Origin: Sphaerochaeta associata
GTDB lineage: Bacteria; Spirochaetota; Spirochaetia; Sphaerochaetales; Sphaerochaetaceae
Direction of reading: 5' to 3'
DNA: 64,000 nt
Assembly: GCF_022869165.1 (NCBI RefSeq)
Contig: NZ_CP094929.1
Coordinates: 3,100,001 to 3,164,000 of the forward strand
This document shows positions 15,327-32,754 of this stretch, piece by piece; position 1 is the first letter of the stretch; every line of letters begins with the position of its first letter. The notes beneath the pieces are model-generated. The model did not search any database. It was not told the DNA's origin and saw only the letters and a program-made list of their open reading frames with translations. Made by a program: the position numbers and the translations under genes.

Positions 15327-15327
15327 C

Positions 15328-16419: not shown

Positions 16420-16422
16420 TGG

Positions 16423-17100
16423 TTAGAATCTCCTTTTACTGCCGATCAACAGGAATATCCCTGCGAATATCCAGAGTACCACAGCAGAAAGCAGGATGCC
16501 AGAGCCGGATTGCTTTCCAAGCATGAGCAGGCCGTGGGCCAGATAGTAGGTGGGCAGAACTCTCACCATCGTTTGTATCGACTGGGGAAGGAGTGAAAGC
16601 GGGAAAGACAGCCCGCTGATCAGGCACATGATCGAACCGATGCCGCTGAACAAGGCGAAGCTGGTGGCATAGGAGCGGAACATGCTGTTCCAAGCCAACG
16701 AAAGAGAGAGCACCATGGCACTGTAGGAGAAGTAAAGCAGGAACAAGACCAGGTAGTTGGTTTGCTGAGGTCCGAAGTATAGAAACGAGGCGACGACAAA
16801 TATCAAGCACTGTACGGATAACAACAACAATGAGGCAAGCAGATGACTGGCCAGGTAGTAGCCGTGGCTTACCGGGGAGGCTGCAATGCGTACCACAATC
16901 TTTTGCATTCTATCCTCTACAACCGGTCTGGTGAGGAGAAACGCCGAATAGAGGTTCAACAACCCGAAAAGGCTGAACCCCATGGGCAATGAACCGGACA
17001 TCGAAGGGATGAACAGCAGAACGAGCGGTAGAACCAACAGCAAGAGAAGCGAGATTTTCTGCTTCAGGTTTTGTTGCAGGGCAAACATGAATATCGTCAT
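16423..17100 (-). CDS. ABC-2-type exporter permease
   Basis: A 225-residue membrane protein with about six hydrophobic segments, the first near residues 16-35 and the last at the C-terminus (ILLSAVVLWIFAGIFLLIG). It belongs to the ABC-2 exporter permease type (NatB/DrrB-like). Its start overlaps the stop of the preceding permease gene by 4 nt (ATGA), and the kinase gene follows 3 nt later. With the neighbouring permease and ATPase it should form a heterodimeric exporter for a hydrophobic compound, peptide or ion; the cargo is not readable. Confidence 0.85.
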   Translation of the reverse strand: MTIFMFALQQNLKQKISLLLLLVLPLVLLFIPSMSGSLPMGFSLFGLLNLYSAFLLTRPVVEDRMQKIVVRIAASPVSHGYYLASHLLASLLLLSVQCLIFVVASFLYFGPQQTNYLVLFLLYFSYSAMVLSLSLAWNSMFRSYATSFALFSGIGSIMCLISGLSFPLSLLPQSIQTMVRVLPTYYLAHGLLMLGKQSGSGILLSAVVLWIFAGIFLLIGSKRRF

Positions 17101-17828
17101 ACCGCTACCCTCCGAACCAAAGGTTTCAAAGCGACAAACAGGACGAGTATGGCCAGACAGACGGGCAGCATTGCAAGAAGCATGGAACCATAGTCGCCCT
17201 CCATCGCCCTGATGCTTGCAGTATTGGCCAGACTCATCGGCGTGCCGTAGAGACGGATGAATCGGAACAAGGCGGAACCTGGAAGTGGAAAGTACAGCCC
17301 CACCAGCATGGGAACCACCGAACCGTAGATGGTGGTCACCACATTGGCCACTTTCGGGGTACCTACGACCAAGAGCAATACCGTACCCAGCAGCTGGTTG
17401 AAGAGCACCGAGATGAGCAGTATTGCAAGCAGCAGAGCAAGCATTGAGAATTGAGCCCCCAATACGAACATGGAAAACAGGACTATGACCAACGACTGCA
17501 GGAAACTGACCACCGTACCGCTGAGCAAGACCGAAAGAACCAACGACCTGCCTTCCACCGGGGAGGCAAACAGGCGGTCGTGCATGGGGGTATAGAGGTC
17601 GGCGGCCAGGGTCTCAAAGCTCAAGGCAGCTCCATAAATCTGAAACGTGAGCGCGAAACCGATGACCAACAGCGTCAGCCGCTGCTGGCCCGCCACCTCC
17701 ATGCCGGTCTGGATGTCGATGGTCTTGTACAGGTAGTCGAAGAAGAAAATCAAAACCAGGGGAAAGAGAATGAGGATGGCATGACCCAATATATCCTTCA
17801 GCGAGCGCTTGATGTGAAATGCAATCAT
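17097..17828 (-). CDS. ABC-2-type exporter permease
   Basis: A 243-residue membrane protein with about six hydrophobic segments starting near residue 15 (ILGHAILILFPLVLIFFFDYLY) and ending in LLAMLPVCLAILVLFVALKPLV. The conserved core FETLAADLYTPMHDRLFASPVEGRSLVLS, before the third segment, is typical of ABC-2 exporters. Start and stop overlap the neighbouring genes by 4 nt, so translation is coupled. Partner of the other permease; exporter cargo unknown. Confidence 0.85.
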   Translation of the reverse strand: MIAFHIKRSLKDILGHAILILFPLVLIFFFDYLYKTIDIQTGMEVAGQQRLTLLVIGFALTFQIYGAALSFETLAADLYTPMHDRLFASPVEGRSLVLSVLLSGTVVSFLQSLVIVLFSMFVLGAQFSMLALLLAILLISVLFNQLLGTVLLLVVGTPKVANVVTTIYGSVVPMLVGLYFPLPGSALFRFIRLYGTPMSLANTASIRAMEGDYGSMLLAMLPVCLAILVLFVALKPLVRRVAV

Positions 17829-18763
17829 GAGGCCACCTCGTCCCGCAGCTGCTTGCCGGTCAGGGTGAGAAACACATCCTCAAGGTTCGGCTGTTTGGTG
17901 TTTATGGTTACCAGTCCCTGCTCGGAGAGACAGAGGACCACCTTGTCCAGAATCGGGATGCCTCCGGGGACTACGATGGTGTATCGGTTCCCCTCCAAAG
18001 CCACTTCCTTCACATCTCCAAGGCCGAGAAGTTCCTTGCGCTTCTGCTCGCTGGCAAGCCGTACCTCCACCTCGATGAAGTGGTCGCCCTGGATGCGGGC
18101 GATCAAGTCGCGGAGAGTTCCATCGGCGATGATGTGCCCGTTGTCCATAATATAGATCCGGCTGGCGACAGCCTCCACCTCCTCGATGTAATGGGAGGTG
18201 TAGATGATCGTCGCCCCGCCCTTGGCGAGTTCTTTCACCGATTGGAGGATGAAGGAACGTGACTGCGGGTCGATGCCCACCGTCGGCTCATCCATGATGA
18301 TCAAGGCCGGCTTGTGCATCAGGGCGCAACCGATGTTGAGCCTGCGCTTCATGCCTCCGCTATAGTGTTTGACCTTGTCGCCAAGCCTGCCTTCAAGACC
18401 TATGAGCCTGCCGACTTCGGCGATGCGAATCTGAATATCGGTCTTGCTCATCCCATACAAGGAGGCAAAGAAGGCCAGGTTGTCCTTCCCGCTCATATCC
18501 TCATACAGGGTGATTTCCTGCGTCACATACCCGATTTTGCTGCGGATGGTCTTGTTCTTTCCATCCTGGGGCATGCCGAACACCGTAATGGAACCCTCAT
18601 CGATGCCGATCAGGCCGATGATCGATCGGATGCAGGTGGTCTTGCCAGCCCCGTTGGGACCAAGCAGCCCGATCACCTCGCCCTGCTCCACACGCAGCGA
18701 ACAGCAATCGAGGGCGAGATTTGTGTTGAATCGTTTAATGACATCGTCTACTTGCAATACCAT
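17825..18763 (-). CDS. ABC exporter ATP-binding subunit
   Basis: A 312-residue ATPase. Walker A GPNGAGKTT near residues 36-44, signature YSGGMKRRLNIG near 134-145, Walker B ALIIMDEPTVGID near 152-164, and the switch region YTSHYIEE near 190. The C-terminal extra domain is typical of DrrA/NatA-type exporters. ATG 18763 is chosen because AGAGGT lies 9 nt upstream; longer in-frame versions begin inside the promoter region. It is the first gene of a seven-gene run (ATPase, two permeases, kinase, regulator, small membrane protein, acetylesterase), all spaced by -4 to +3 nt. Confidence 0.93.
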   Translation of the reverse strand: MVLQVDDVIKRFNTNLALDCCSLRVEQGEVIGLLGPNGAGKTTCIRSIIGLIGIDEGSITVFGMPQDGKNKTIRSKIGYVTQEITLYEDMSGKDNLAFFASLYGMSKTDIQIRIAEVGRLIGLEGRLGDKVKHYSGGMKRRLNIGCALMHKPALIIMDEPTVGIDPQSRSFILQSVKELAKGGATIIYTSHYIEEVEAVASRIYIMDNGHIIADGTLRDLIARIQGDHFIEVEVRLASEQKRKELLGLGDVKEVALEGNRYTIVVPGGIPILDKVVLCLSEQGLVTINTKQPNLEDVFLTLTGKQLRDEVAS

Positions 18764-18812
18764 GACTGTATACCTCTGCATCCCAGTATAGGAACAGAGG
18801 CTGCTTGTGTGC

Positions 18813-18828
18813 AGTGACAATTGTCACT
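18813..18828. promoter_or_regulatory. 16-bp perfect palindrome upstream of the ABC/two-component operon
   Basis: AGTGACAATTGTCACT is a perfect palindrome lying about 50 nt upstream of the ABC ATPase start and 4 nt past the OsmC stop codon. The minus strand also shows TATACT at 18786-18791, a possible -10. The position suits an operator for the seven-gene operon. A short terminator for OsmC is less likely because no U-tract follows. Confidence 0.45.
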
Positions 18829-18831
18829 ACG

Positions 18832-19266
18832 TTACTTTACCAGGACAATCGGTTCGATGGTGACTTCGGTTTTCATGGAGTTTGAGATCAAGCAGTACTT
18901 CTCGGCCTTTTCCAAGAGCTGTACTGTTTTCTCCATTTGGCTCTCATCATCGATGACAACCGTCGGCTTGATGTGGATTTTGGTCATCAGCATTCCCTTC
19001 TCCATCTTCTCAAGCGTACCCACAGCCTCGCTCTTGTAACTCTTGAAGGCAAGCTTCGCCTTTTCGGCGATGGAGAGGAAGGTGGTCATCAAGCACACTT
19101 CGGCGGCTGCCGTATAAAGGTGCTCGGGCGACCAGATGCCCTCGTGGCCGCCTGGGAACTGCGGGGGAGTCGCCACCTCGATGGTGGGAAGGAACGCAGA
19201 AGAGAGGGCCGCCCTCTTCTGCTTTGTCCACTCTACTGACGTACTATAGGTATGCGTGTCGCTCAT
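18832..19266 (-). CDS. OsmC-family protein
   Basis: A 144-residue protein of the OsmC/Ohr fold. Visible: TPPQFPGGHEGIWSPEHLYTAAAEVCLMTTFLSIAEKAKL, the usual central helix with one Cys (CLMT), and a beta-rich tail. OsmC proteins reduce organic hydroperoxides with two cysteines. Only one clearly placed redox Cys is evident near residue 59 and another occurs late (KYCLIS), so peroxidase activity is plausible but not certain. AAGGAGA precedes ATG 19266. It follows the IolB-like gene by 40 nt on the same strand. Confidence 0.8.
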   Translation of the reverse strand: MSDTHTYSTSVEWTKQKRAALSSAFLPTIEVATPPQFPGGHEGIWSPEHLYTAAAEVCLMTTFLSIAEKAKLAFKSYKSEAVGTLEKMEKGMLMTKIHIKPTVVIDDESQMEKTVQLLEKAEKYCLISNSMKTEVTIEPIVLVK

Positions 19267-19306: not shown

Positions 19307-20104
19307 CTACAGCGTTGCCGGCACCTCGGGCCAAATCTTTACGCCCTTGTCCAGCAGCCACGTATGCTCCTTTCGATAATAGCGGGTGGTGGGAAGCCAC
19401 TTGTCCCCGGGAAGGTGGGGGATCAACCAAATGTAGTACATCGCATAGCCGGCCGCCGCCACCTGAGAGTGGGTGGTGTCGGGGAAAATCAAGGAGGAAT
19501 CGCCGTCATGGACGACGAAGGCCTCTTCGTTGAGGACCGAAATTCCGAAACCCTGTGAGGGGAAGAATCGGTAGTGGTAGATTTCCGGATGGGGATGGTC
19601 GTGCGGCGGGTAGCTCGACCAACGGCCGGGATGATTGATCACCTCTCCCATCACCATATTCGAGTAGGGAGCACTCTCCCCGTCGAAGACGGTACGCACG
19701 GTGCGGTTGCTCGCCTCGTTCAGTACTCCGGCCCCGAAAACCTCGGTCTTCACCTCGCCCTTGGCATAGAAGCGGACCGGGAATTCTTGTTCATTGATGC
19801 ACCGCTCGACGGCCAGCTCACTATCCTCAAGCGCCTCAACCATAACAGGTATCTGCCTCGGGGCGTGCAGGACCACCGGAGGCTCATCGATGCAGCTTGC
19901 TCGCTCGCCTACCGCTTCCGCATCAAGCCAGGAGAAACGGACCTTCCCCTTGATCAGCATCCAAGCCCGCTCCAAATCCAAGGAGCAGGTTGTGCAATCC
20001 CCCTTGTTGAGCTTGAGGATGCCGAAATCCAAAAGCATAGGGCCATCGAGTGTCGTAATCGTTGTATATCCAGCCTCCAGCGGCTTTTCTTTGCGAATAA
20101 TCAT
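19307..20104 (-). CDS. iolB: 5-deoxy-glucuronate isomerase (IolB family)
   Basis: A 265-residue bicupin protein matching IolB, which isomerises 5-deoxy-glucuronate to 2-deoxy-5-keto-gluconate in myo-inositol breakdown. The diagnostic segment NHPGRWSSYPPHDHPHPEIYHYRFFPSQGFG (residues about 155-185) carries the metal-binding His/Glu set, and YIWLIPHLPGDKW lies near residue 225. GGGAGG precedes the ATG. No other inositol genes are in the window, so it may serve a related uronate pathway such as KduI-type chemistry on pectin products; that is inference. It is transcribed divergently from the polysaccharide operon. Confidence 0.85.
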   Translation of the reverse strand: MIIRKEKPLEAGYTTITTLDGPMLLDFGILKLNKGDCTTCSLDLERAWMLIKGKVRFSWLDAEAVGERASCIDEPPVVLHAPRQIPVMVEALEDSELAVERCINEQEFPVRFYAKGEVKTEVFGAGVLNEASNRTVRTVFDGESAPYSNMVMGEVINHPGRWSSYPPHDHPHPEIYHYRFFPSQGFGISVLNEEAFVVHDGDSSLIFPDTTHSQVAAAGYAMYYIWLIPHLPGDKWLPTTRYYRKEHTWLLDKGVKIWPEVPATL

Positions 20105-20213: not shown

Positions 20214-23200
20214 ATGAAGCGTAATAAACATCCCAAGCCCGGGCGCATGAAACCGTGGGTCCTGGTAGTGCTCTTGCTGCTCCTCAGTATTCTCCTGAGC
20301 CTGCCCTTTGTGCTGTGGCTGCTTGCGCCGACCAAGAACCTGGCGGTCACCGTCTACGATAAAAGTGTACCAACAACCAAAGCCGAACAGCACCAAAACC
20401 TGGGATGGTTTCTCAGCCACTTCAAGTATCCCACCGAGGAGGGAGCACGTTTTCGCACCCGGTCGACGTATCTGGGTTACCATCCAGGAGAGGAAAACCC
20501 GATTCGAGACCTCTCGTCCTTGGATGAGAGAACCGACCTGCTCTATATTGCCGACACCTATGGGGTATATAAAAGCGGCGAGGGTTTCTCCCGAACGCTT
20601 ATGGATGGGGAAAGCAACCTTATCTGGGGGGGAAGCAGCGCATCCGATGTCCAGGCGATCAGGGCTTTCCTTAATCGGGAATCAGCCAGCACCGTCGTCG
20701 CCGAATACAACACCTTTGCAACCCCTACACCTTCCTACATACAGGCACAGCTGTACGAGGTGCTGGGAACCCGGTGGACCGGGTGGACCGGCATGTATGT
20801 CAACAACCTGTCCAAGACCGGTGAGACACCGCCTTGGATCCTCGACATCTACGGGGAGAACTGGGATTACTCGGGAAGCGGTGTGCTGCTGTACAACACC
20901 GACGATGAGGTCGTGGTGCTGAGAGAGGGTATTGAACTTGGTCCCAGCCGGATGACCTTTTCATTCACCGAAAAGGGGACCGCGGTCCTCGGACTATCGG
21001 GATCCATCGAGTACCGCCTGCTCTTTGACATCACCGAACCGCTTGGCGGCACCGAGGTGCTTGCAACCTACTCCCTCGATGTCAGTGAGAAGGGGAAGCA
21101 GCTGCTTGAGCGCTTCGGACTTCCCTCCTCCTTCCCTGCAATCCAGCTCAAGCAAACGGCTAACCATCGATCATATTACCTCGGAGGCAATTGGGCGTAC
21201 AGCAAACGGTCCTTGAAGCTGTTCAGACTCAAGGGTCTGGCTTCCCTGCTGCAAGCCACAGCCACCGGGGAACGCACCTTTTACTGGAAGTATTACATGC
21301 CCATGCTCGCCTCCATATTCGAGGAGGCACAAGAACGGAACGCTCAGGTCCTCCCGCCCCTGCAACGAGAAGTTGCAACCATCAAATCAAGCAGGATGAT
21401 CAGCAGGACGAACGGGAGACAGCTTGAACTCTTCAGCAAAGGATCTTGGAAGCCTTATTTCGTCTACGGTATAAATCTCGGCATCGCGATGCCGGGCCGC
21501 TGGTTCACCGAATTCCCCCAGGACAAGAGCCTGTACTACCACTGGCTTGAGCAGATGGGAGAGCTGGGAGTGAACACCGTACGCATCTACACCCTGCTCG
21601 ATCCCCAGTTTTACCAAGCCTTCAGCCTCTACAACCGCATCCATCCTGACCGGCCGATCTATCTCTTGCAGGAGGTCTGGCCTGAGGAGGAACCGCCGGG
21701 ACACGACTACCTCGAGCCGGCCTATCAGAAGGCCTTCGAAGAAGAGATCATCAACGTCGTCGACGCCATCCATGGCAAGGCCCGCATCCCCGAGCGAAAG
21801 GGAAGAGCCTATGGTGTCTATGACACCGACGTCTCTTCCTATGTCCTGGGATACCTGGTAGGACGCGAGCTGGAACCTCACGAAGTGGAACAGACGGACA
21901 TCAACCACAGCGGCTACCGCTTTATCGGCCGATACATCAGAGCGACCGAACAAGCCACCCCCACCGAGAGCTGGCTCGCCCAAAGCTGCGACTACCTGCT
22001 CTCCTACGAACAGCAAGCCTATGGTTGGCAGCACCCCGTCTCAATCGTCAACTGGCCGACGCTGGACTACCTCACCCACGAGTCTGAACGGAATGAGGAC
22101 GGAGAGAAGATCTGGGAGTACAACGACCGCACCACCGTGAACATCAACCACCTGGTGGTCGGAGAACTCAACCATGTCGGTCTGTTCGGTTCCTATCACA
22201 TCTATTCCAACTACCCGGACTTCATGAACAACGAGCCATCCTTCGATGCATATGAGGATGAACAGGGTCGACTGCGTTACGGAGGCTACCTGCAGGCATT
22301 CATGGAGGGGCATACGAACTACCCGGCGGTGGTCGCCGAATTCGGCATCGCCACCGGCATGGGCAATGCCCACTCCAGCCCCGACGGCTACCACCACGGA
22401 GGTCTTACCGAAGAGCAGCAGGCCCAAGGCATCATCCGCATGTTCGAGGCGATGAAGGATCAAGGATACAGCGGGGGCATCATCTTTGAGTGGATGGACG
22501 AGTGGGCCAAGAAAACCTGGACCACCGAACCGTACATGGTCCCCTATGACCGGCAGATATTATGGCACAACGCCATCGATCCCGAGCAGAACTACGGCAT
22601 CCTTGCCTATGAGGCGGTCAAGCCCAAGCGAAGCGGTGCCGCCGCTGTCGGGGACGGCTTGGTCCGGCAAATGGAAGTGCGTGCCGACGCCTCCTTCCTT
22701 CATGTGGACATCAGTCTCGCACGCCCGATCGACTTGGGAGCCGAACAGCTTTTGATCGGCATCGACACCCTCTACCGTGATCGTGGAGAACTCAAGCATG
22801 CCCCCCTTCTCGACCACCTTGCCCCTTCGGGCATGGAGTATGTTGTAGTGCTCGATTCCTTTGCAGGCTCCCGCCTGCTTGCCCTCAAGGAGGCGAACTA
22901 CACCACCTACCACTTCAGCACCTCCGCCGACTTGAGAACTGACGGCCTCTTTGAGCCGATGAGCAAATTGATCAACAAGGAACGCAAACTCCTTGACGGG
23001 ACGGTGATCCAGCCCAAGTACGAGGATGCCAGTCTTTTACGGTACGGCAGCCTGGAGGGAAACACCAACCATTGGAACATGGAGGGAACAGAGCTCTCGG
23101 TGCGCATCCCTTGGACGCGCATCAACGTCAGCGATGTTTCATCGGCACGAGTGCTCGACGATGAGAGGATCTACTACAGCGACCCGCTTCGTGATCAACT

Positions 23201-23393
23201 GGCTACGACGGCAACCGAGGGGCTTGTGCTCAGCGTGGTTGTTGCCGATAGCATCAAGCAAACCGTCCTGGATGCGCCTGAGGCGGCAACGCTTGTTCTG
23301 CCTGGATGGAACCAACCGGTTTACCAACAGAGAATGAAGGCAAGCTATGACTTGCTCAAGGCGTATTTTGCCAAGGAGAGAGCAGATGATTGA
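20214..23393 (+). CDS. membrane-anchored glycosidase-like protein of a polysaccharide-synthesis operon
   Basis: A 1059-residue protein with one N-terminal membrane helix (VLVVLLLLLSILLSLPFVLWLL, residues about 15-36) and a large extracytoplasmic part. Residues about 40-400 are beta/alpha-rich without a recognised family. From about 412 (FVYGINLGIAMPGRWF) a TIM-barrel-like region resembles clan GH-A glycosidases, with Glu552 in GYLVGRELEPHE as acid/base candidate and Glu709 in VVAEFGIATG as nucleophile candidate. The C-terminal part (about 800-1059) is beta-rich. The region upstream of 20214 is open but lies antisense to the IolB-like gene and is not counted. It overlaps the next gene by 8 nt. 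Possible roles are trimming, transglycosylation or export of the polymer made by the GT2 protein. Confidence 0.7.
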   Translation: MKRNKHPKPGRMKPWVLVVLLLLLSILLSLPFVLWLLAPTKNLAVTVYDKSVPTTKAEQHQNLGWFLSHFKYPTEEGARFRTRSTYLGYHPGEENPIRDLSSLDERTDLLYIADTYGVYKSGEGFSRTLMDGESNLIWGGSSASDVQAIRAFLNRESASTVVAEYNTFATPTPSYIQAQLYEVLGTRWTGWTGMYVNNLSKTGETPPWILDIYGENWDYSGSGVLLYNTDDEVVVLREGIELGPSRMTFSFTEKGTAVLGLSGSIEYRLLFDITEPLGGTEVLATYSLDVSEKGKQLLERFGLPSSFPAIQLKQTANHRSYYLGGNWAYSKRSLKLFRLKGLASLLQATATGERTFYWKYYMPMLASIFEEAQERNAQVLPPLQREVATIKSSRMISRTNGRQLELFSKGSWKPYFVYGINLGIAMPGRWFTEFPQDKSLYYHWLEQMGELGVNTVRIYTLLDPQFYQAFSLYNRIHPDRPIYLLQEVWPEEEPPGHDYLEPAYQKAFEEEIINVVDAIHGKARIPERKGRAYGVYDTDVSSYVLGYLVGRELEPHEVEQTDINHSGYRFIGRYIRATEQATPTESWLAQSCDYLLSYEQQAYGWQHPVSIVNWPTLDYLTHESERNEDGEKIWEYNDRTTVNINHLVVGELNHVGLFGSYHIYSNYPDFMNNEPSFDAYEDEQGRLRYGGYLQAFMEGHTNYPAVVAEFGIATGMGNAHSSPDGYHHGGLTEEQQAQGIIRMFEAMKDQGYSGGIIFEWMDEWAKKTWTTEPYMVPYDRQILWHNAIDPEQNYGILAYEAVKPKRSGAAAVGDGLVRQMEVRADASFLHVDISLARPIDLGAEQLLIGIDTLYRDRGELKHAPLLDHLAPSGMEYVVVLDSFAGSRLLALKEANYTTYHFSTSADLRTDGLFEPMSKLINKERKLLDGTVIQPKYEDASLLRYGSLEGNTNHWNMEGTELSVRIPWTRINVSDVSSARVLDDERIYYSDPLRDQLATTATEGLVLSVVVADSIKQTVLDAPEAATLVLPGWNQPVYQQRMKASYDLLKAYFAKERADD

Positions 23394-25374
23394 CCTTACC
23401 AAACCCGTAGAGGTTGCCCAAGGACTGTGGTGGGTGGGCTCACAAAGACCCCACAACAGACTGCAATGCAACCCCTATCTTTTCATTAAGGACGGACTGG
23501 GAATTCTCTTCGACCCCGGATCGGTCCTCGACGGCCAGGTCGTATTGGAGAAAACCACGAGCCTGCTCCCCCTCTCCAACCTGAAGGCCATCGTCTGCAG
23601 TCACCAAGACCCTGATTTGTGTGCCGCCATTCCGCTCTTTGAGAAAGCCGGGTTCAAAGGAGACATCTGCTGTCATGCTCGTGCAGCGCTGTTGATTCAG
23701 TACTATGGCATCAAGAATCCGTTCTACATGGTGAATCATCTCTCCTTTTCCTACAGGTTGAGTGAAAACACCTCCATCGGCTTCATCTTCGCCCCCTATC
23801 TGCACTTCCCCGGAGCCATCATGAGCTACCTGCCCGAGCAGCAGGCTCTGATCAGCGGCGACTTGTTCGGCTCCATCACCGCCGATTGGAAGCTGTATGC
23901 CGACGAGAACTACATCGATGGGATGAAGGCGTTCCACGAGGTATACATGCCCGGCCATGAGATTCTCGCTGCAGCAATGGAAAACCTGGAAAGCTACCCC
24001 ATCCGCCTGATCTGTCCGCAGCATGGCTCGATCATAGACAAGAATATTGAAGAGCATATCAACACGCTGAAGACCATGCCATGCGGACTGTTCATCCAAT
24101 CCAAGCAGCTCAGGCTTCCCTTGGAGGGAGGTGTTCGCGCCCTGCTCGACCAGGTAGTGAAGCGTTTGATAACCATTTACGGGGAGCAGGAGATCAGGAA
24201 AACCTTCGAGAATTCCCCGTTCACCCTGAATGTCAAGATGAGGCATATCGCCAAGACCACGCTTGCCGAGAACCAGTTGTGGGAGAGTTTCTTCTCCACT
24301 CTTGAGGAAAGACGGGGCGTCGCCTACCTCTCATCGATCTCTTCCTTCGTGGAGCTGCTGGGAAAACAATACGGCTTGGGCATCCCGTCGGTGTTCTCCA
24401 CCCTCATCGCCAGCTCCGAGCGCCAGATCAAGGAGAAGGATGCCGAACTTAAGGAGCTGGAGGAGAAACTGCAGAATCTGCAGGAGAGCATGTACCGCGA
24501 TCCGGTGACCGGACTGTACAACAAGGAGTTCCATCAAGCCTTCATGCTCAAGGAGCTTGCCGGAGGCAGCCCGCTTGTTTCCGTGGTTCTGGCCATCGAC
24601 AACCTTGAACGCATCAATCTCGACCATGGCAGCACCGAAGGCGACCGGACCATGCGCATTCTCTCACAGGTGGTATTGCAAAGTGTAGATCCGCATGTGC
24701 AGGTATGTCGCATCACCGGAGGGATGTTCGCCCTCTTATGCGCCTCCCTGACAAAGGAGCAGGCCATAGAACGAGCTGCTGCCTTGGGTAATCGCATTGC
24801 CGGGGAGGACCGGTTCATCGTCCCCATCACGGTTTCGATGGGAATCGCCCACTCCGACGAAGTCGCCGAATCCAGTCGCAACGATGTTTTACAGATGGCC
24901 TCCGATATCAACGCCTTGGCGGCCTTCCGCTTGCGCCTTGCACGAAAGAAAGGGGCAGGAAGCATCGTTGCCGTCTCTTCAAGCGAGGCCGGCAGTCGCT
25001 CGGCATTTGCCATCCTGCTTGTGGATGTGCCTTCCTTCTCCCGTGACCTTCTCAAGCAAACATTAGAGAAGGAGCGGTATCGGGTTCTGACGGCCGACAA
25101 CGGGCTCGAAGCGAAAAAAATGCTGCTTGCGGGAGGGATTGATTTGGTCTTGTGCGAGCTGCTCGTCCCCAAGCTCGGCGCCCTGACCCTGCGCAAGGAG
25201 CTCTTGGGTAATCCAAGTACGGCAGGAATTCCCTTCCTGCTCATGTCGGCCAACAAGCAGGAGCAGACGGTCCGGAGGGCCTTTGACTTGGGCATCCAGC
25301 ACTTCCTGGCCCGGCCTTTGGCCTTGTATGAGTTGACAGGCTTGGTCAACCTCATCGCTTCAAAGGAGGCCTGA
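23386..25374 (+). CDS. ODP-type diiron sensor protein with degenerate GGDEF and pseudo-receiver domains
   Basis: A 662-residue cytoplasmic protein. Residues about 1-230 form the diiron metallo-beta-lactamase (ODP) domain of flavodiiron proteins, but without flavodoxin. Ligands H73-x-D75-x-D77, H140, D159 and H213 keep the flavodiiron spacing (61 residues between the fourth motif position and H140, then 18 to D159). A coiled coil (about 340-370) leads to a GGDEF fold beginning DPVTGLYNKEF (372), whose signature reads GGMFA, so cyclase activity is not expected. The C-terminal receiver-like domain (about 545-662) has Glu591 at the phospho-acceptor site. ODP domains bind O2 or reduce O2/NO; a sensor role here is inferred. 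AAGGAGA precedes ATG 23386, which overlaps the upstream stop. Confidence 0.8.
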   Translation: MIDLTKPVEVAQGLWWVGSQRPHNRLQCNPYLFIKDGLGILFDPGSVLDGQVVLEKTTSLLPLSNLKAIVCSHQDPDLCAAIPLFEKAGFKGDICCHARAALLIQYYGIKNPFYMVNHLSFSYRLSENTSIGFIFAPYLHFPGAIMSYLPEQQALISGDLFGSITADWKLYADENYIDGMKAFHEVYMPGHEILAAAMENLESYPIRLICPQHGSIIDKNIEEHINTLKTMPCGLFIQSKQLRLPLEGGVRALLDQVVKRLITIYGEQEIRKTFENSPFTLNVKMRHIAKTTLAENQLWESFFSTLEERRGVAYLSSISSFVELLGKQYGLGIPSVFSTLIASSERQIKEKDAELKELEEKLQNLQESMYRDPVTGLYNKEFHQAFMLKELAGGSPLVSVVLAIDNLERINLDHGSTEGDRTMRILSQVVLQSVDPHVQVCRITGGMFALLCASLTKEQAIERAAALGNRIAGEDRFIVPITVSMGIAHSDEVAESSRNDVLQMASDINALAAFRLRLARKKGAGSIVAVSSSEAGSRSAFAILLVDVPSFSRDLLKQTLEKERYRVLTADNGLEAKKMLLAGGIDLVLCELLVPKLGALTLRKELLGNPSTAGIPFLLMSANKQEQTVRRAFDLGIQHFLARPLALYELTGLVNLIASKEA

Positions 25375-25375
25375 G

Positions 25376-28219
25376 GTGTCCAGCAACTTTGCAATACTGT
25401 TGACAGGTGCGGTGATGCTTCTCAATGTTCTCGTTTTTGCAGGCATCATCATCCTGCGCCTGGTGCGTGCAGACAGAAAACGAAGGCTCGACAAGGCCCA
25501 GGCTCTCTTTCTCTCCCAACTGGAGACAGAACAGCCGGATTTCTCGCATTTCAAAGCAAAAACCCTTCTCATGCTCTACGGCAGACTCAGCGACAGCCTC
25601 CTGCTGAAGAAGGCGTTCCATGAGCAGATTCTCGGTTTTCTCTCAACTTCGAAGGTTGTCAAAACGCTGACCAAACGGCTCTATTCACCCTTTTTCGTCA
25701 GGCGGATAGAGTCGGCTGTTCACCTCAAGCCGATGCTCACGCTTCCCTCCTACCGGACGTTGTTCCTTCAGGCACTGTCTGAAGAGAAAAGTCAGGTTGT
25801 TGTGCTCTACCTGTTCCAGGCTCTTGCCTGGGTGAAGGAGAAGCGCGCCATCCTTCCCATGATCAGGCGCCTTGGCAGGGCGACTCCCTGGATGGCTGGC
25901 CGCTATCGCGCCCTCTTGATCGGCTATGAATTCATGCTGCTCCCCTACTTGAAAAAACGCCTCTCCATCGACCGAACGTATCTCGGGCTTCTTATCTGCG
26001 AGTACGCCATAGCGTATCCTTCGGATGCGCTCAAACCCTACCTGCTCCGCCGGGCGCAGGAGAAGAACATCCAAGTGCGCAAGTGTGCACTGGAGGCATT
26101 GCGTCTGCACTTTCCCCATGCGTTGCTGGAGCCCGAATTCTTGGAGAGCCCCTTCCCAAGCACGATGCTGTATGTTATCCGCGCCTATGCGCGCATTGCC
26201 GATAAGCGCAATATTGCCGCCCTGCTGTCGTACAGCAAATACTCAAGAGCGCGTGATCAATTGGTGCAAAGCCTCTCGGAGATGGCCTACAAGGACCCAT
26301 CCCTGCTCAAGGAGTATCTGTCGCGTTTTGAGAAAACACGCAGTAAAAGTGAGACAGAGGTGCTGGCCAAGGTGCTGGACAACCGTCTGACCTACATCCT
26401 GACCGCCTATCAAGGGGATTTGGATGAGCAATTGACGAACTTGATCACCAGCTTGATCGAGCAGCAGCACATCAGCGGCTTGGTGCAATTCCTCAATACC
26501 AATGCAGAAATCCACAAGCAGCAACAACTTATCTCCTTGGTCAGAAAGCTTGCAAAACGAAGCAAACACCTGAGGCTCCTGTTCTTTGCCTATCTTCACC
26601 CTGCCGTCTACAAGACACTGAAGATAGCCAAACCGGAAACAGGAAAACCCTCCATGCAGGTCCATCAGGAGAAACCTCAGCGGCTGACCCTGATCCTCCT
26701 GCTCATCCTCACCCTTGCCGTCTTCCCTTTGATCATTTTCCTCTCCGAACTACCCAACCTCATCGACCTGAGTCTTGGTGAAGTCCTGTCCTTGTATGTG
26801 GTGCGCTTCAACTACCTGTTGGTCTACTATTCGGTCACAATCAACCTCATATACCTGACCATGCTGCTGATCTCCTATCGTGGGGCCGGAGTACAGAACA
26901 GGCTTTGGCATGCGAAGGACAAGCGCATGCTCTTCACCAAGGGCCTGCTTCCGTCGGTGTCCATCATCGCCCCTGCCTACAATGAGGCGGCAAACATCAT
27001 CGAAAGCACCAACAGCCTGCTTAACCAACAGTATCCCGACTTTGAGCTCATTGTCGTAAACGATGGGTCCAAGGATGAGACCCTGCAGACGCTGATCACC
27101 TACTTCAACCTTGAAAAACGTGATCAATTAGTCCCCAAACGACTGAGGACGCGACCTCTCAGGGGTATTTACAAGAACAAGAACATCCCCAACCTGGTGG
27201 TGGTGGACAAGGTCAACGGAGGCAAGGCCGACTCCTTGAACCTGGGGCTGAACGTAGCGACCAAGCAGTTCTTCTGCGGCATCGACGCCGATTCGCTCTT
27301 GGAGCCCGACGCCCTGCTCAGGGCGGTCTCGGTCATGCTCGACAACAGTACCGAAACCATTGCCAGCGGCGGCAACATATGTCCGGTCAACGGCTGTGAT
27401 GTCGAGCTGGGAAGCCTCGACTCGATCGGCCTGCCTTCCAAATTCCTACCCAGGCTGCAGAGCCTCGAGTACATCCGCTCCTTCATGACCGGCAGGGTCG
27501 GTTGGGCGAGGTTGAATGTACTGTTGATCATCAGCGGGGCTTTCGGCATTTTCCATCGCGACCGGACCATCGCCACCGGCGGATACCTTACCAAGAGCGG
27601 CAGGTTCCATAAGGATACAGTGGGAGAGGACATGGAACTCGTTGTACGGCTTTCACGGTACATGCGCGAACGCAAGCTGCCCTATCGGGTCCAATACGCC
27701 AGCAATGCCAACTGCTGGACCGAAGTTCCTGAGAAGTGGAAGGTGTTGCACCGCCAGCGCGACCGTTGGCACCGCGGCCTGATCGACATCCTGCTCTTTC
27801 ACAGCACCATGATCGCCAATCCCCGCTATGGAAGGCTGGGTATGGTGGGTATGCTCTACTACTTTCTCTTTGAGCTGCTCGGACCGTTTGTGGAAGCGCA
27901 AGGCCTGGTCTTTGTGTTTATCGGCGCCCTGATGGGCTTGCTCAACATCCCCATCGCCTTGGCGCTTTTCACCTCGACCATTCTTTTGGGGATTCTCGTC
28001 TCTTTGTCCGCCCTGCTTATCAGCGAGTTCGACCGCCCGCTCTATGCCAAGAAGGATATGCTGCGTTTGGTGTGGATGGCGATCGTAGAGAATTTCGGGG
28101 TGCGTCAGGTCATCAGCCTGTGGCGGGTGAGCGCCTACTTCAGTGCGATGAGAAAGAACCGAGGGTGGGGAGCCCAGGTGAGAACCGGCTTTAAAGGGGC
28201 ACAAACGAAAACGAAGTAA
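25376..28219 (+). CDS. HEAT-repeat/GT2 processive glycosyltransferase (BcsA/PgaC-like polysaccharide synthase)
   Basis: A 947-residue inner-membrane protein. One membrane helix at residues 4-24, an alpha-helical HEAT-like repeat region (about 60-400), two membrane helices near 430-510, then a family-2 glycosyltransferase domain: SIIAPAYNEAANIIES (about 527), VVNDGSKDET, IDADSLLEPDAL (metal-binding DxD near 637), GEDMELVVRL (about 750) and the processive QxxRW motif QRDRW at 794-798, followed by further membrane helices. It should polymerise and extrude a beta-linked glycan. No PilZ domain is present, so control may come through the HEAT part and the upstream ODP protein rather than c-di-GMP. 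GTG start with AAAGGAGG upstream, 1 nt after the previous gene. Its 3' end overlaps the opposing GH16 gene by 29 nt. Confidence 0.85.
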   Translation: MSSNFAILLTGAVMLLNVLVFAGIIILRLVRADRKRRLDKAQALFLSQLETEQPDFSHFKAKTLLMLYGRLSDSLLLKKAFHEQILGFLSTSKVVKTLTKRLYSPFFVRRIESAVHLKPMLTLPSYRTLFLQALSEEKSQVVVLYLFQALAWVKEKRAILPMIRRLGRATPWMAGRYRALLIGYEFMLLPYLKKRLSIDRTYLGLLICEYAIAYPSDALKPYLLRRAQEKNIQVRKCALEALRLHFPHALLEPEFLESPFPSTMLYVIRAYARIADKRNIAALLSYSKYSRARDQLVQSLSEMAYKDPSLLKEYLSRFEKTRSKSETEVLAKVLDNRLTYILTAYQGDLDEQLTNLITSLIEQQHISGLVQFLNTNAEIHKQQQLISLVRKLAKRSKHLRLLFFAYLHPAVYKTLKIAKPETGKPSMQVHQEKPQRLTLILLLILTLAVFPLIIFLSELPNLIDLSLGEVLSLYVVRFNYLLVYYSVTINLIYLTMLLISYRGAGVQNRLWHAKDKRMLFTKGLLPSVSIIAPAYNEAANIIESTNSLLNQQYPDFELIVVNDGSKDETLQTLITYFNLEKRDQLVPKRLRTRPLRGIYKNKNIPNLVVVDKVNGGKADSLNLGLNVATKQFFCGIDADSLLEPDALLRAVSVMLDNSTETIASGGNICPVNGCDVELGSLDSIGLPSKFLPRLQSLEYIRSFMTGRVGWARLNVLLIISGAFGIFHRDRTIATGGYLTKSGRFHKDTVGEDMELVVRLSRYMRERKLPYRVQYASNANCWTEVPEKWKVLHRQRDRWHRGLIDILLFHSTMIANPRYGRLGMVGMLYYFLFELLGPFVEAQGLVFVFIGALMGLLNIPIALALFTSTILLGILVSLSALLISEFDRPLYAKKDMLRLVWMAIVENFGVRQVISLWRVSAYFSAMRKNRGWGAQVRTGFKGAQTKTK

Positions 28220-28931
28220 GAACCATGTGGGCGGGCCTCGCCGGTACGGCTCCTTGAAAGAGCCAGAGGTTGATGCGGAACCGCACCCGCCCCGGTGTCG
28301 GACTGCTTGGATGAGTCCAGCGCTCGATGAGCATGGCTTCACTCTCCTTGAGGTCGGGGTCGACCTTTCCATGGTAGGAGGAGAAGGAGACATCGTCCTT
28401 TGTCCAAACAATACGGTGAGTCGTAAGGTTGCCGTTCAGCTCTGGTTTGAAGACAAAAATGCGTGCTGGGTCGGTATAGGGCTGGACAACGTACTGGACT
28501 TTGGTGCCGTCACGCTCACCCCAAGCGGCAAACTCTATGTCGATCTCCCGATTATACTCCTCAGGTGCTGTATCCCAGGTGAAAAAGCCTGCAACCACAT
28601 GAGCATCGTATTGCGCAATATCAGTCTCAACGGTGAAGGTATAGGTACCGTAGCCCACCCGCTCACGGGTGAAAATCTCAGTTGCCCACCACTTTCCCTG
28701 ATGTTCATTTATAGTCAGGTGCAGGCCCCAGTCATCCACCCACACTGCATCCTCGGTTCCCCGAAAGTAGTTCGGGCCGGGGGCTGTCGGGGTGAGGCTG
28801 GTCTTCATCCTCCAATGTAGATTCCCGAACTCCAGCTCCCTCGGTCCGGTCTTCAATACGGGAACCGCCTCTGCATACAGGGTGCAGGATAGCAAGCTTA
28901 CCAATGCCAATAAAACGACTGAAGTTTTCAT
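28191..28931 (-). CDS. secreted family-16 glycoside hydrolase-like protein
   Basis: A 246-residue exported protein: signal peptide MKTSVVLLALVSLLSCTLYA (a relaxed lipobox reading is possible), then a jelly-roll domain with the GH16 catalytic motif in REIDIEFAAWG (ExDxE, near residue 130) and EIFTRERVGYGTYTF before it. GH16 enzymes cleave or transfer beta-glucans and galactans such as laminarin, agar or lichenan. It is last in the crtI-crtB-cruF-deacetylase run, starting 2 nt after the deacetylase stop, and its 3' end overlaps the polysaccharide synthase gene on the other strand. Processing of the polymer made next door is an attractive but unproven role. Confidence 0.8.
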   Translation of the reverse strand: MKTSVVLLALVSLLSCTLYAEAVPVLKTGPRELEFGNLHWRMKTSLTPTAPGPNYFRGTEDAVWVDDWGLHLTINEHQGKWWATEIFTRERVGYGTYTFTVETDIAQYDAHVVAGFFTWDTAPEEYNREIDIEFAAWGERDGTKVQYVVQPYTDPARIFVFKPELNGNLTTHRIVWTKDDVSFSSYHGKVDPDLKESEAMLIERWTHPSSPTPGRVRFRINLWLFQGAVPARPAHMVLTSFSFVPL

Positions 28932-28933
28932 CC

Positions 28934-29821
28934 CTACCTCCCGGTCAACGCAAGGACCTTTTGCACAAAAACATCGGTGCTGTAGTTCTCCACGTTCATC
29001 GCCCCGATGGCCCAGGCATTGATGCTCTTTGTCGGCACCACTTGGGCAACACTGGTTCTGATGGCTTGGTAGCCAAGGTCGTAGGCCTCGTTGATGATTG
29101 TACCATCCCCTGCACCGCTGCCGAACGGCAGGGCCAGGACTGTCACCTTCTCTCCAATCTGCTCTTCGATGATCTGCTTGGATGTCTCAAGCTCATGTCG
29201 GACGTCCTGGGCATCCATCTCTCCCATCATCCGATGGGTGAGCGAGTGGGATTCAAAGAAGAAGAGCTTCTTGCCCGATGCCGTCCGGTACTCACTCATC
29301 TCACGGATCTGGTCCCAGCTCATGTAGCCGACCTCGCCGATGAAGTTGGGAACCAGGAAAATGGTCGCCTCCAGCTCATACTGGCGAAAAAGCGGGTAGA
29401 CAATGGCGTAGAGGGAGAGGTCACCATCGTCGAAGGTGATGATCACCTGGTCGGTTTTCGCCTGCCAACCTTGTGTCAGGACGTTCTTGAAGTTGGTGAT
29501 GGTGAAATTGCGTTTGAGAAACGCCAAATCGTGTTCAAAGTTATAGAGGTCGCGGTTATAGACATTGCCCGTCCTGCCGAAAACGATGTTGTGATAGAGA
29601 ACCACCAGAAGCTTGGGATCCTTCCTGAGGGGAATCTGGCTCTGGGTATCCAAGCCGGGAAGGGTTTGCACGGGAAGCAATCCCTGTTGGTGCGTGCTCC
29701 AGTACCTCACAGGAGGAGCGATGTCTCTCACAAGGGGGGCACTCTGCTGTTCGGGGAGCACTTCGGCAGACAAGTTGAACATGAGGAGGAAGAGTAGTGA
29801 AATCAGGATGAAGTGTTTCAT
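28934..29821 (-). CDS. polysaccharide deacetylase (NodB homology domain)
   Basis: A 295-residue exported protein: signal peptide MKHFILISLLFLLMFNLSA, then a carbohydrate-esterase-4 fold. Motif 1 is VIITFDDGDLSLYAIVYPLFRQYELEATIFLVPNFIGEVGY (metal Asp in TFDDGD), and motif 2 is ESHSLTHRMMG (H-SLT-H) near residue 183. LLVVLYHNIVFG near residue 68 is typical of PgaB/IcaB-like deacetylases. It would remove N-acetyl groups from a surface polymer in the periplasm. The ATG overlaps the stop of cruF (ATGA). An in-frame extension to 29995 lies inside cruF and is rejected. Confidence 0.88.
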   Translation of the reverse strand: MKHFILISLLFLLMFNLSAEVLPEQQSAPLVRDIAPPVRYWSTHQQGLLPVQTLPGLDTQSQIPLRKDPKLLVVLYHNIVFGRTGNVYNRDLYNFEHDLAFLKRNFTITNFKNVLTQGWQAKTDQVIITFDDGDLSLYAIVYPLFRQYELEATIFLVPNFIGEVGYMSWDQIREMSEYRTASGKKLFFFESHSLTHRMMGEMDAQDVRHELETSKQIIEEQIGEKVTVLALPFGSGAGDGTIINEAYDLGYQAIRTSVAQVVPTKSINAWAIGAMNVENYSTDVFVQKVLALTGR

Positions 29822-30462
29822 ACGGCAAAGGTCCTTAAACCGACAAAGAAGACGAACTGGACGATGACGATCAGGGTGGGGACCTTGTTGACGGCAGCCA
29901 GCTTCTGCTTGGCAAACACAAAGGCGAAGACAAAGGCGATGCAGAACCATGCGATATAGTTCTGTAGCGGGATATCCACGGCAGCCCACGTCCAATAGTC
30001 AAAGGCAATGGCCACCGGCTCCATCACATAGTCGAAGAGGACGGTCAAAGAAGCTGTGACCAAGGCTGCAGCCAGGGGGTTCGCAATCCTTGTACGTGCC
30101 ACCTGTACAATGCCCAAAATGATGATGGTCCAGTTGATGCCGATCAGAAGCGGTACGCCGAGCAGCTTCAGTCCCAGCGTCGGTCCATAGGTGTAGGCAC
30201 CGAAGACCAATGATGTCGCCACCCCCACAATTTCCAAGAACAGCGTTACGCCGAAGGTGACGGCCGCCCAAACAAGCAGGCCCTTATTACGCTCTTTCAC
30301 CTCAAAGAAGAATCCCAAGACCGAAGTTGCCAAAATGGTATAGGGGGTGAAGGCCAGCATCATCGGCAGTGTTGCGCCTATGCTGTGCAGCACGATGCCG
30401 ATGAGATAGAACGGGAGGAGCAGGAAAAGAATCAGCTTTTCTGTTTTGCTGAGAATCTGCAT
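29818..30462 (-). CDS. cruF: carotenoid 1',2'-hydratase-like membrane protein (CruF family)
   Basis: A 214-residue membrane protein with six or seven hydrophobic helices and the family signature DYVMEPVAIAFDYWTWAAVDIPLQNYIAWF (about residues 143-172). CruF-type proteins add water to the 1',2' end of acyclic carotenoids such as lycopene. Its start lies 31 nt inside the end of crtB and is preceded by AGGAG 10 nt upstream. Together with crtB and crtI it implies an acyclic hydroxylated carotenoid, but no later sugar or acyl transfer gene is seen here. Confidence 0.85.
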   Translation of the reverse strand: MQILSKTEKLILFLLLPFYLIGIVLHSIGATLPMMLAFTPYTILATSVLGFFFEVKERNKGLLVWAAVTFGVTLFLEIVGVATSLVFGAYTYGPTLGLKLLGVPLLIGINWTIIILGIVQVARTRIANPLAAALVTASLTVLFDYVMEPVAIAFDYWTWAAVDIPLQNYIAWFCIAFVFAFVFAKQKLAAVNKVPTLIVIVQFVFFVGLRTFAV

Positions 30463-31286
30463 GGCAGGGCGACTCCTAGGGTGTGGGCTATGCCCTTTCT
30501 CAGGATCCTCGCCTTCGGCGGCTTGATCCGCTTCTTATAGACGATGAAAGGATCCTTGGCTATCTGCTGTGCGGTCCAGCAGTACATGTCCGCTGCGGTC
30601 ATAATCGGGATGCGATACCGCCTGGGAATAAAACGATACCCCTTCTGTGCCTCTTTCTGCCACCGTTGATACCGTTTGAGCTCTTCCCTGATGAAAGCTG
30701 CAAACTGCTTCTCATGCGTTTGGACGTAGGATTGTTCCAAGGAGGCAAGACCGCTTGATCCAAGAGGCAGGTAGCGCCTTCCGATTGCAAGATCCTCCTT
30801 GATGTCCCTGATGAAATTAATGTACTGCATCGCCCGTCCCAGCATTGCTGCATAGCCGAAGGCCTCTTCACTCAGGTCCATGATCCTGGCCATGTAGAGA
30901 CCGATGACCTCGGCCGAGCCGTAGATATAGGTGAGCACCTCGTCCAAGGTTTCACAGGTGGAGCTTGAAAGATCGTGTTCCATGGAGTCCAAAAACGCCT
31001 CGGTCCAGGCTGGGTCGAACTGCTTGCGTCTCTGAAGTTCCAAAAAGGCATCGATAATTACGTCACCGCTCGCTTTGCCTGACCTAAGAGCCTCTGTGTA
31101 TGTCCTCCGAAAGGCGTGAAAAGCCGTCGGGTCGACCGGCTGGTCGTCCACCAGGTTGTCAGCCACTCTGACAAACCCGTACAATGCATAGACATCCCTG
31201 CGCACCGCAGGGGGAAAGAAACGGGAACTGAAGTAATAGGTCTTGCTCCCGCTTCTGAAAATTTGTTCATGTTTCTCAGCGACCAT
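30432..31286 (-). CDS. crtB: phytoene synthase
   Basis: A 284-residue enzyme joining two geranylgeranyl diphosphates to phytoene. Both Asp-rich motifs of the squalene/phytoene synthase family are visible: DNLVDD near residue 44 and DIKEDLAIGRRYLP near 160, with YGSAEVIGLYMARIM near 121 and GRAMQYINFIRD before the second motif. ATG 31286 overlaps the end of crtI by 11 nt and has AAGGAAA upstream. Cytoplasmic or membrane-peripheral. Complete and unremarkable. Confidence 0.95.
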   Translation of the reverse strand: MVAEKHEQIFRSGSKTYYFSSRFFPPAVRRDVYALYGFVRVADNLVDDQPVDPTAFHAFRRTYTEALRSGKASGDVIIDAFLELQRRKQFDPAWTEAFLDSMEHDLSSSTCETLDEVLTYIYGSAEVIGLYMARIMDLSEEAFGYAAMLGRAMQYINFIRDIKEDLAIGRRYLPLGSSGLASLEQSYVQTHEKQFAAFIREELKRYQRWQKEAQKGYRFIPRRYRIPIMTAADMYCWTAQQIAKDPFIVYKKRIKPPKARILRKGIAHTLGVALPCRFSAKQKS

Positions 31287-32754
31287 AGGTTTCTTGGATT
31301 TCCTTAGCAATCAATTCACTTGCAATGAGCACCATCGGGACTCCTACGCCCGGATGGGTATATTGGCCTGTATAGTACAGATTCGGTATCTGCTTGGCTT
31401 GGTGTCTGGGGCGGAACACCGCCGTTTGGAACAGCGTGTGACTCAGGCCCAAGGCCGTGCCCTTGTAGGCATGGTAGTCTTGGATGAAATCACGATGGGT
31501 GTACAGCCGCTTCACCAAAACATCCTTTCCCAAATCCTCACCGGTGACCTTCTTCACATGTTCAACCATTTTTGCAAAGTATGCCTCGCGCTGCTCGTCG
31601 GTATCAGCGAGTCCGGGAGCGACGGGAACAAGGAGAAAGACGTTCTCGCACCCCTGGGGTGCAGAGCTTGGGTCGGTTTTAGTTATGCAGCTGAGGTAGA
31701 AGCAGGGATCTTGGTCCGGCCATGCAGGCCGCTTGAAAATATCATCGAAATGACCGTTCCAATCCTTGGCGAAGTAAAGATTGTGATGCTCAAGACCCTT
31801 GAGTTCACGACCGATGCCAAGGTAGGCGATGAACATGGATGGTGCCACCACCCGCTTCTCCCAATACGTGTCGGAGTAGGTTCTTTCCTCTTTCTTGATC
31901 AATGAAGTTTCTGTGTGGTGGTAGTCAGCCGAACTGACAATGACATCGGCTGCAAAGTAGCCTTTGTTCGTTTGTACCCCGACGGCTTTCCCATCCTTGG
32001 TGACAATATTGGTCACCTCGGTATCGGTGAGCAGTTTTACTCCGAGCTCCTTGCAAAGGTTGGCAAACCCTTCGGCCGCCCCGGCCATGCCTTTCTCGGG
32101 GAAGAACACACCGAGCTTGAGGTCGACATGGCTCATGATCGAGTAGATGGCGGGAGCCTGGGAGGGATTGGTACCCAAGAACACCATGGCATACTCGAGG
32201 ATCTGCTTGGCCCTGCGGTCCTGCACATAGCCTGAGACGAAGGAGTCGAGCTTGCCGAGTACACCAAGTTTCAGGCCTTCGGTCATCAGGCGTCGGTTGA
32301 AGAACTGACCTATATGCTTGTAGTCGCGATAGAGAAAATCCTCCATCGCAACCTCATACTTGTAGGTCGACTGCTCCATGTAGGCTTTCAGGGCTTCACC
32401 GCCACCCTTTTCAAAGGATTCGAAAAGTTCGATGTTCTTGTCGAAATCCGGGGTAAGCTCAACATCTCCCTGTTCACCGAAGAACACCTTGTAGTAGGGG
32501 TCCAGCGGCTTGAGTTTGAAGTACGATTCCCGCTTTTTCCCAAAGAGCGAGAAGTAGCGTTCGAACACCTCGGGCATGAGATACCATGACGGGCCCATGT
32601 CGAAGGTGAACCCGTCCTTATGCCAATAACGGGCACGGCCACCGAGCAACTCGTTCTTCTCAATCACCGTAACGGTGCATCCATCCCGTGCAAGCAAGGC
32701 TGCAGCGCTCAGGCCGCCGAAGCCTCCGCCAATGACTATCGCTTGTTTTCCCAT
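31276..32754 (-). CDS. crtI: phytoene desaturase
   Basis: A 492-residue FAD enzyme introducing double bonds into phytoene. The N-terminal dinucleotide motif AIVIGGGFGGLSAAALLARDG is at residues 5-25, followed by EKNELLGGRARYW, and the C-terminal desaturase signature YYTGQYTHPGVGVPMVLIASELIAKEI lies near residue 462. It is the first gene of a minus-strand run crtI-crtB-cruF-deacetylase-GH16. ATG 32754 lacks a proper Shine-Dalgarno sequence and lies exactly 6 nt after a -10-like TAGGAT, so the mRNA may be leaderless. Confidence 0.95.
   Translation of the reverse strand: MGKQAIVIGGGFGGLSAAALLARDGCTVTVIEKNELLGGRARYWHKDGFTFDMGPSWYLMPEVFERYFSLFGKKRESYFKLKPLDPYYKVFFGEQGDVELTPDFDKNIELFESFEKGGGEALKAYMEQSTYKYEVAMEDFLYRDYKHIGQFFNRRLMTEGLKLGVLGKLDSFVSGYVQDRRAKQILEYAMVFLGTNPSQAPAIYSIMSHVDLKLGVFFPEKGMAGAAEGFANLCKELGVKLLTDTEVTNIVTKDGKAVGVQTNKGYFAADVIVSSADYHHTETSLIKKEERTYSDTYWEKRVVAPSMFIAYLGIGRELKGLEHHNLYFAKDWNGHFDDIFKRPAWPDQDPCFYLSCITKTDPSSAPQGCENVFLLVPVAPGLADTDEQREAYFAKMVEHVKKVTGEDLGKDVLVKRLYTHRDFIQDYHAYKGTALGLSHTLFQTAVFRPRHQAKQIPNLYYTGQYTHPGVGVPMVLIASELIAKEIQETYGR

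Follow-up and report, generated by a model that had tools for sequence, protein, structure and literature searches.

An ODP-type diiron regulator with inactivated GGDEF and receiver domains, partnered with a HEAT-repeat polysaccharide synthase in Sphaerochaeta, suggests a biofilm-polymer switch without the usual c-di-GMP machinery

The usual account of the post-translational control of polysaccharide synthases is one of c-di-GMP, and in BcsA and Alg44 it is a cytoplasmic PilZ module that gates a membrane GT2 synthase. The locus considered here raises the question of how a synthase may be controlled when that module is missing. It lies in a 64,000-nt stretch of the Sphaerochaeta associata genome (the window, to which all coordinates refer) and has at its core three genes:

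20214..23393, + strand: P1, 1059 aa, glycosidase-like, with a single N-terminal TM helix and most of the rest placed outside the cytoplasm as one large part
23386..25374, + strand: P2, 662 aa, a regulator with the order ODP, linker, pseudo-GGDEF, pseudo-receiver
25376..28219, + strand: P3, a 947-aa membrane synthase with TM1, HEAT repeats, TM, GT2 and TM

The initial annotation took these for one tight run, and the ORFs, their order, the 8-nt overlap of P1 and P2 (P1 stop at 23391-23393, P2 ATG at 23386) and the 1-nt gap between P2 and P3 (P2 stop at 25372-25374, P3 start GTG at 25376) all proved correct on re-checking. Ribosome sites are good for both P2 (GGAGAG) and P3 (AGGAGG). The order P1-P2-P3 is kept in all genomes of the genus that have P2 and sufficient contig, the named relatives including Sphaerochaeta halotolerans and Sphaerochaeta MAGs, and so the trio is more than chance. 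It is also found in further members of the family; a lack of conservation elsewhere, which the annotation had named as counting against its reading, is thus not what is seen, as the trio is kept in the genus and in some relatives. That the three genes are one functional unit, with a P2-synthase partnership within it, is supported.

The synthase has two distinct parts of relevance:

25556..26620, + strand: HEAT repeats of P3, residues 61-415, with a cytoplasmic location predicted from the positive charges after TM1
26960..27826, + strand: GT2 domain of P3, residues 529-817, with D563, D637/D639, GEDME and QRDRW

The proposed GT2 synthase with QRDRW is borne out. P3 has the DxD-type, ED and Q(Q/R)xRW motifs of a processive GT2 synthase together with membrane helices that in the model flank the domain (436-516 and 788-926), and the catalytic motifs (D637/D639, GEDME, QRDRW) are invariant in 14 homologues. 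Pfam has no PilZ match in P3, as had been claimed, so that P3 differs from BcsA and Alg44, and PilZ was found in none of 26 genus genomes, though GGDEF matches there number from 6 to 36 per genome. The HEAT-like repeats, which Pfam does not call in the window's P3 and does call directly in the relatives L190, L216 and L239, are substantiated by a match of a profile of 14 homologues to alphaRep/HEAT structures (hmmsearch, E 3e-16) and by an AF2 model in which residues 61-415 form an all-helical repeat with block pLDDT 77-94; Foldseek pairs this region with alphaRep, importins and other HEAT/ARM proteins.

The GT2 catalytic domain of P3 is closest to those of the PgaC/IcaA poly-N-acetylglucosamine synthases, the nearest curated family (E 6.9e-33, below its cut-off), and it resembles them also in having a PgaB/IcaB-like deacetylase near its locus and a PgaA-like TPR protein in unfused relatives. 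It differs in scoring far under the PgaC equivalog cut-off (114 bits against 422 for TIGR03937), in its fused HEAT domain, and in the separate GH-A-like and GH16-like proteins of its locus. P3 is a processive polysaccharide synthase, probably of the poly-hexosamine (PgaC-like) type. Its nearest GT2 family and the deacetylase close by suggest that it may make a hexosamine polymer that is deacetylated in part. The neighbouring genes are these:

18832..19266, - strand: OsmC-like gene, divergent and upstream of the module, PF02566 E 7.5e-18, an oxidative-stress context
28191..28931, - strand: secreted GH16-like protein with an EIDIEF motif, a convergent neighbour with a weak ExoK-family match (E 0.0015)
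28934..29755, - strand: polysaccharide deacetylase, PgaB/IcaB-like, PF01522 E 1e-18

Matches of the deacetylase to PgaB (2.4e-9) and IcaB (3.6e-9) are both below the cut-offs; it occupies the corresponding position in the genus and in L057, L068, L204 and L205. A homologue of the GH16-like gene adjoins the module in the genus, in other family members and in L048, L189, L193, L195, L198 and L203. P1 itself has no Pfam match. Its description as a large membrane-anchored glycosidase-like protein holds for the anchor, a single N-terminal TM helix, while the fold call is weak: a TIM barrel is predicted around residues 400-775, but the AlphaFold model from ten sequences is poor (mean pLDDT 47), its top Foldseek matches are the TIM barrels of GH164, GH5 and GH1 with weak E, and a Clostridial relative matches GH113 only at E 0.01, below the GH113 cut-off. 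E552 and E709 are conserved in ten homologues, and identity in relatives is 51-86%. P1 is membrane-anchored and probably a clan GH-A glycosidase-like protein. In one close relative (L032, about 5897-5905) an in-frame stop follows after about 243 residues of P1, which marks either a pseudogene or an error of sequencing. Together with the GH16-like protein and the deacetylase, P1 would process or trim the polymer or help to export it.

Further out, a carotenoid cluster follows the deacetylase (29821-32751, - strand; a PF04240 carotenoid biosynthesis protein, a phytoene/squalene synthase and a desaturase-like oxidoreductase), with similar ORFs after the module in L032 and L038. The OsmC gene is beside P1 in L038 also, and in L068 it lies upstream of P1 with a single short gene between the two. 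In the window a KduI/IolB-family gene (19307-20104, - strand) intervenes and, since it is absent in L038, looks like a recent insertion. A run of response regulator, histidine kinase and ABC-2 type transporter genes (14715-18820, - strand) lies upstream of the module, and ORFs similar to these are also upstream in L032 and L038. The OsmC gene on one side and the carotenoid genes on the other fit an oxidative signal.

What P2 might contribute depends on its three domains, which account for all of its Pfam matches: ODP (PF19583, 170.3 bits, over the curated cut-off of 27.2), GGDEF (2.5e-12) and Response_reg (3.9e-13).

23461..24027, + strand: ODP diiron domain, residues 26-214, PF19583 E 5.6e-50
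24493..24900, + strand: pseudo-GGDEF, residues 370-505, motif TGGMF
25012..25344, + strand: pseudo-receiver, residues 543-653, with Glu591 (25156-25158) at the phospho-acceptor position

The initial annotation saw six flavodiiron ligands in the first of these, and all six are present (H73, D75, D77, H140, D159, H213), but the family is that of the ODPs (HxDxD) and not that of the flavodiiron enzymes (HxExD). The pattern HQDPD..H..D..H aligns with identical letters to 6qrq and 6qnm, two oxygen-binding diiron proteins of known structure, and the six are retained at every genus locus as well as by relatives in Bacillota and Fibrobacterota. By profile and ligands P2 belongs to the ODP family. No flavodoxin/FMN domain follows the MBL domain in P2, where Pfam gives only the three domains above, and with this and the ODP-type ligand set P2 as a flavodiiron enzyme is ruled out. 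According to PMC7666581, stand-alone ODP senses O2 and has a signalling partner to which it is coupled. P2 is like Treponema denticola TDE2498 and the two solved structures in the domain and its six ligand letters; it is unlike stand-alone ODP in being fused to a pseudo-GGDEF and a pseudo-receiver, and in being paired with a polysaccharide synthase instead of a chemoreceptor. It is plausible from the sequence that the diiron site is the input of P2. The control by oxygen or NO that had been suggested is accordingly narrowed, NO being less likely than O2 or Fe(II) as the signal because the domain is a sensor of ODP type and lacks a flavodoxin partner.

The extent to which regulator and synthase travel together was assessed well beyond the genus. 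P3-like proteins are present in 28 of 393 genomes from the phylum. HEAT and GT2 are together in 23 spirochaete genomes, and the pseudo-GGDEF/receiver regulator is directly upstream in 22 of the 22 that are assessable (in the remaining genome, G237, the HEAT-GT2 locus is split between contig ends); for L190 and L193 the regulator was seen in stop-to-stop ORFs, and in L192 it is a receiver only, with no recognisable GGDEF. A scan of genome contigs put P3 next door in 18/18 three-domain P2 loci that keep downstream sequence, a count that leaves aside three more that end before the P3 position, and at none (0/59) of the other scanned loci, mostly of ODP-only proteins. The pair of regulator and HEAT-GT2 protein occurs also in Bacillota and Fibrobacterota MAGs, namely in Clostridia (L065, where the order is P2-P3-P1), Desulfitobacteriaceae (L066), Christensenella (L069) and Fibrobacteria (L067), these taxon names being from MAG records in which binning errors are possible.

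In the five other spirochaete genomes with P3-like proteins HEAT and GT2 are separate adjoining genes, and in the three of those loci that extend far enough, from deep Spirochaetota (L213, L214, L216), the order is CheY-like receiver, TPR/PgaA/BcsC-like protein, HEAT membrane protein, PgaC-like GT2, with the Asp of the receiver intact. Two Clostridial loci (L239, L240) have four genes, P1, receiver, HEAT and GT2, matching the order in the window; their receivers have Glu at the phospho-site, and no GGDEF can be recognised in the Clostridial regulators. That the parts recur both fused and as separate genes argues for receiver, HEAT and synthase working together. The HEAT protein need not always have a receiver partner, as in three Clostridial loci (L241, L244, L245) no receiver is recognised beside HEAT-GT2. 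In the L244 and L245 clusters the HEAT and GT2 genes are surrounded by two or three P1-like proteins. No published description of the HEAT-GT2/pseudo-GGDEF arrangement was found in the open literature, most subscription papers being outside the scope of that search.

The second domain of P2 had been noted as a GGMFA pseudo-GGDEF, and it is indeed inactive, but the pentapeptide in line with GGDEF is TGGMF (444-448), shifted by a single position. In PleD numbering, the position of the catalytic Glu, E370, has Glu in none of 41 P2 homologues (Asp in one), and D327, the first metal Asp, is lost in 40/41 and is A403 in P2. P2 as an active diguanylate cyclase is therefore rejected, the GG[DE]EF motif being gone in all homologues and the metal Asp gone here. 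The guanine-contacting positions are mostly kept (N335 in 36/41, D344 in 31/41), and because these PleD guanine-binding residues are retained a nucleotide ligand for the pseudo-GGDEF is possible. PleD likewise has receiver and GGDEF in one protein, and of the structures in the PDB it is the closest to the P2 receiver; in P2 the order is reversed, GGDEF then receiver, and both catalytic sites are lost. The pseudo-receiver was correctly recognized: Glu591 sits at the phospho-site in place of the acceptor Asp, so that P2 is not a phosphorylatable receiver, and both GGDEF and receiver are inactive. Glu is at this site in 41/48 homologues, including every one with intact ODP, and Asp in 7/48, at loci with degenerate ODP or none (L191, L193, L194, L198) and at the unfused L213, L214 and L216.

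The nearest working analogues of P2 are PelD and YdaK, inactive GGDEF proteins encoded beside synthase genes that bind c-di-GMP through RxxD and for which post-translational control has been proposed (PMC7112168, PMC5422440). P2 likewise is an inactive GGDEF protein whose gene adjoins that of an EPS synthase; unlike them, it has no RxxD I-site and has an extra pseudo-receiver, and here there is a HEAT docking domain on the synthase and a diiron or SpoIIE-linked input. The genome has about 30 GGDEF matches, and for that reason c-di-GMP is probably present in the cell; a separate 344-aa GGDEF protein is encoded in the window at 42271-43305 (+ strand; PF00990 E 5.2e-29). That P2 is a c-di-GMP receptor of this kind, with its degenerate GGDEF binding c-di-GMP and switching the synthase and the ODP only modulating, would suit the genetic position, the many GGDEF matches and the retention of N335 and D344. 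We nevertheless consider it unlikely, as the RxxD used by PelD and YdaK is absent from P2 and from 40/41 of its homologues, on which count an I-site receptor is rejected, and the regulators of L192 and the Clostridia are without recognisable GGDEF. P2 is thus outside the flavodiiron reductases, the diguanylate cyclases and the I-site receptors. Control by a c-di-GMP riboswitch is likewise rejected, the 64-kb window having no Rfam match whatever. The suggestion that the diiron protein replaces c-di-GMP is consistent with the I-site being absent in 40/41 homologues and with neither PilZ in 26 genus genomes nor a riboswitch in the window having been found.

The ODP is not an invariant part of the arrangement. 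It is intact in the genus, in other family members and in L046, L060, L065-L067, L069, L197, L202 and L208, degenerate in L047, L048, L191, L195, L196, L199, L200, L201 and L203, and absent in L189, L192, L194 and L198, and these states require several changes on the GT2-domain tree. A gene for a SpoIIE phosphatase with a HATPase domain is upstream in seven loci without intact ODP (L047, L048, L191, L193, L195, L199, L200), and none was found at ODP-intact loci (Fisher p 0.016, with lineages counted by hand and kinship not corrected). The architecture, the states of ligands and motifs, the gene partnership and the sensor swapping can all be read from the sequences. For the initial proposal of the diiron protein as switch of the synthase through the HEAT region, the P2-synthase partnership and HEAT as an obvious docking surface are in favour, but the diiron domain is not what is kept throughout: pseudo-GGDEF/receiver and HEAT-GT2 stay together in several lineages in which the ODP ligands are lost or the domain is absent, which makes it more likely that the HEAT contact is made by that pair, with the ODP as a swappable input.

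From the same variation it could be argued that phosphorylation or partner switching by trans-acting proteins is the real switch and the ODP vestigial or structural, given that the ODP is absent or ligand-less in several lineages, that SpoIIE-HATPase genes are upstream in 7 loci and that the phospho-site Asp is retained in 7/48 receivers. This too seems improbable to us: every ODP-intact lineage has Glu at the phospho-site, no locus with an intact ODP was found to have the SpoIIE gene, and the six ligands are unchanged in sequences divergent down to about 31% identity and in several phyla, which argues that the metal site is under selection. With sensors being swapped, intact ligands show constraint, not the identity of what binds or its effect. 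That P2 is instead an O2- or NO-scavenging diiron enzyme merely sharing an operon with the synthase, as the homology of ODP to flavodiiron NO/O2 reductases and the OsmC neighbour might prompt, is very improbable, since P2 has no flavodoxin or other electron-donor domain, its ODP is fused to two signalling domains, and its partnership with the synthase persists where the metal site, or the ODP domain as a whole, has been lost.

The reading we favour, and consider reasonably probable, is that the pseudo-GGDEF/receiver pair gates the synthase from a docking position on HEAT, the input here being the O2- or iron-sensing diiron site. The cytoplasmic HEAT domain of P3 would be the docking site for a dedicated regulator, whose conserved output part would consist of two inactivated domains, a GGDEF and, joined to it, a receiver bearing a phospho-mimicking Glu, and this pair would act as a protein clamp on HEAT. 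The clamp may have evolved from a phosphorylatable receiver and would now take its setting from a sensor that is either attached or upstream. In the genus that sensor would be the ODP, in which Fe(II) loading and O2 binding would change the conformation, with relay through the linker. The physical contact with HEAT, the gating and O2 or iron as the signal are what we infer; that the appearance of O2 turns polymer synthesis on is no more than a guess. More broadly, and here we would put the chances at a little short of even, there may be a family of biofilm-polymer synthases, spread across phyla, whose gating by a HEAT-docked pseudo-GGDEF/pseudo-receiver needs no second messenger, with inputs exchangeable by lineage among a diiron O2/Fe sensor, SpoIIE-phosphatase partner switching and a phosphorylatable receiver.

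The co-inheritance of output part and synthase across several phyla, with the sensor swapped or lost, suggests a biofilm-polymer switch without the usual c-di-GMP machinery, in which dead c-di-GMP and two-component domains seem to do the job of c-di-GMP as a protein clamp with a plug-in sensor. The natural sensor swaps are a ready-made control set for the model. If it is true, it shows functions open to dead receivers and dead GGDEF domains, provides a possible output for spirochaetes with many GGDEF proteins and no detected PilZ, and would tie the production of matrix by anaerobes directly to oxygen or iron.
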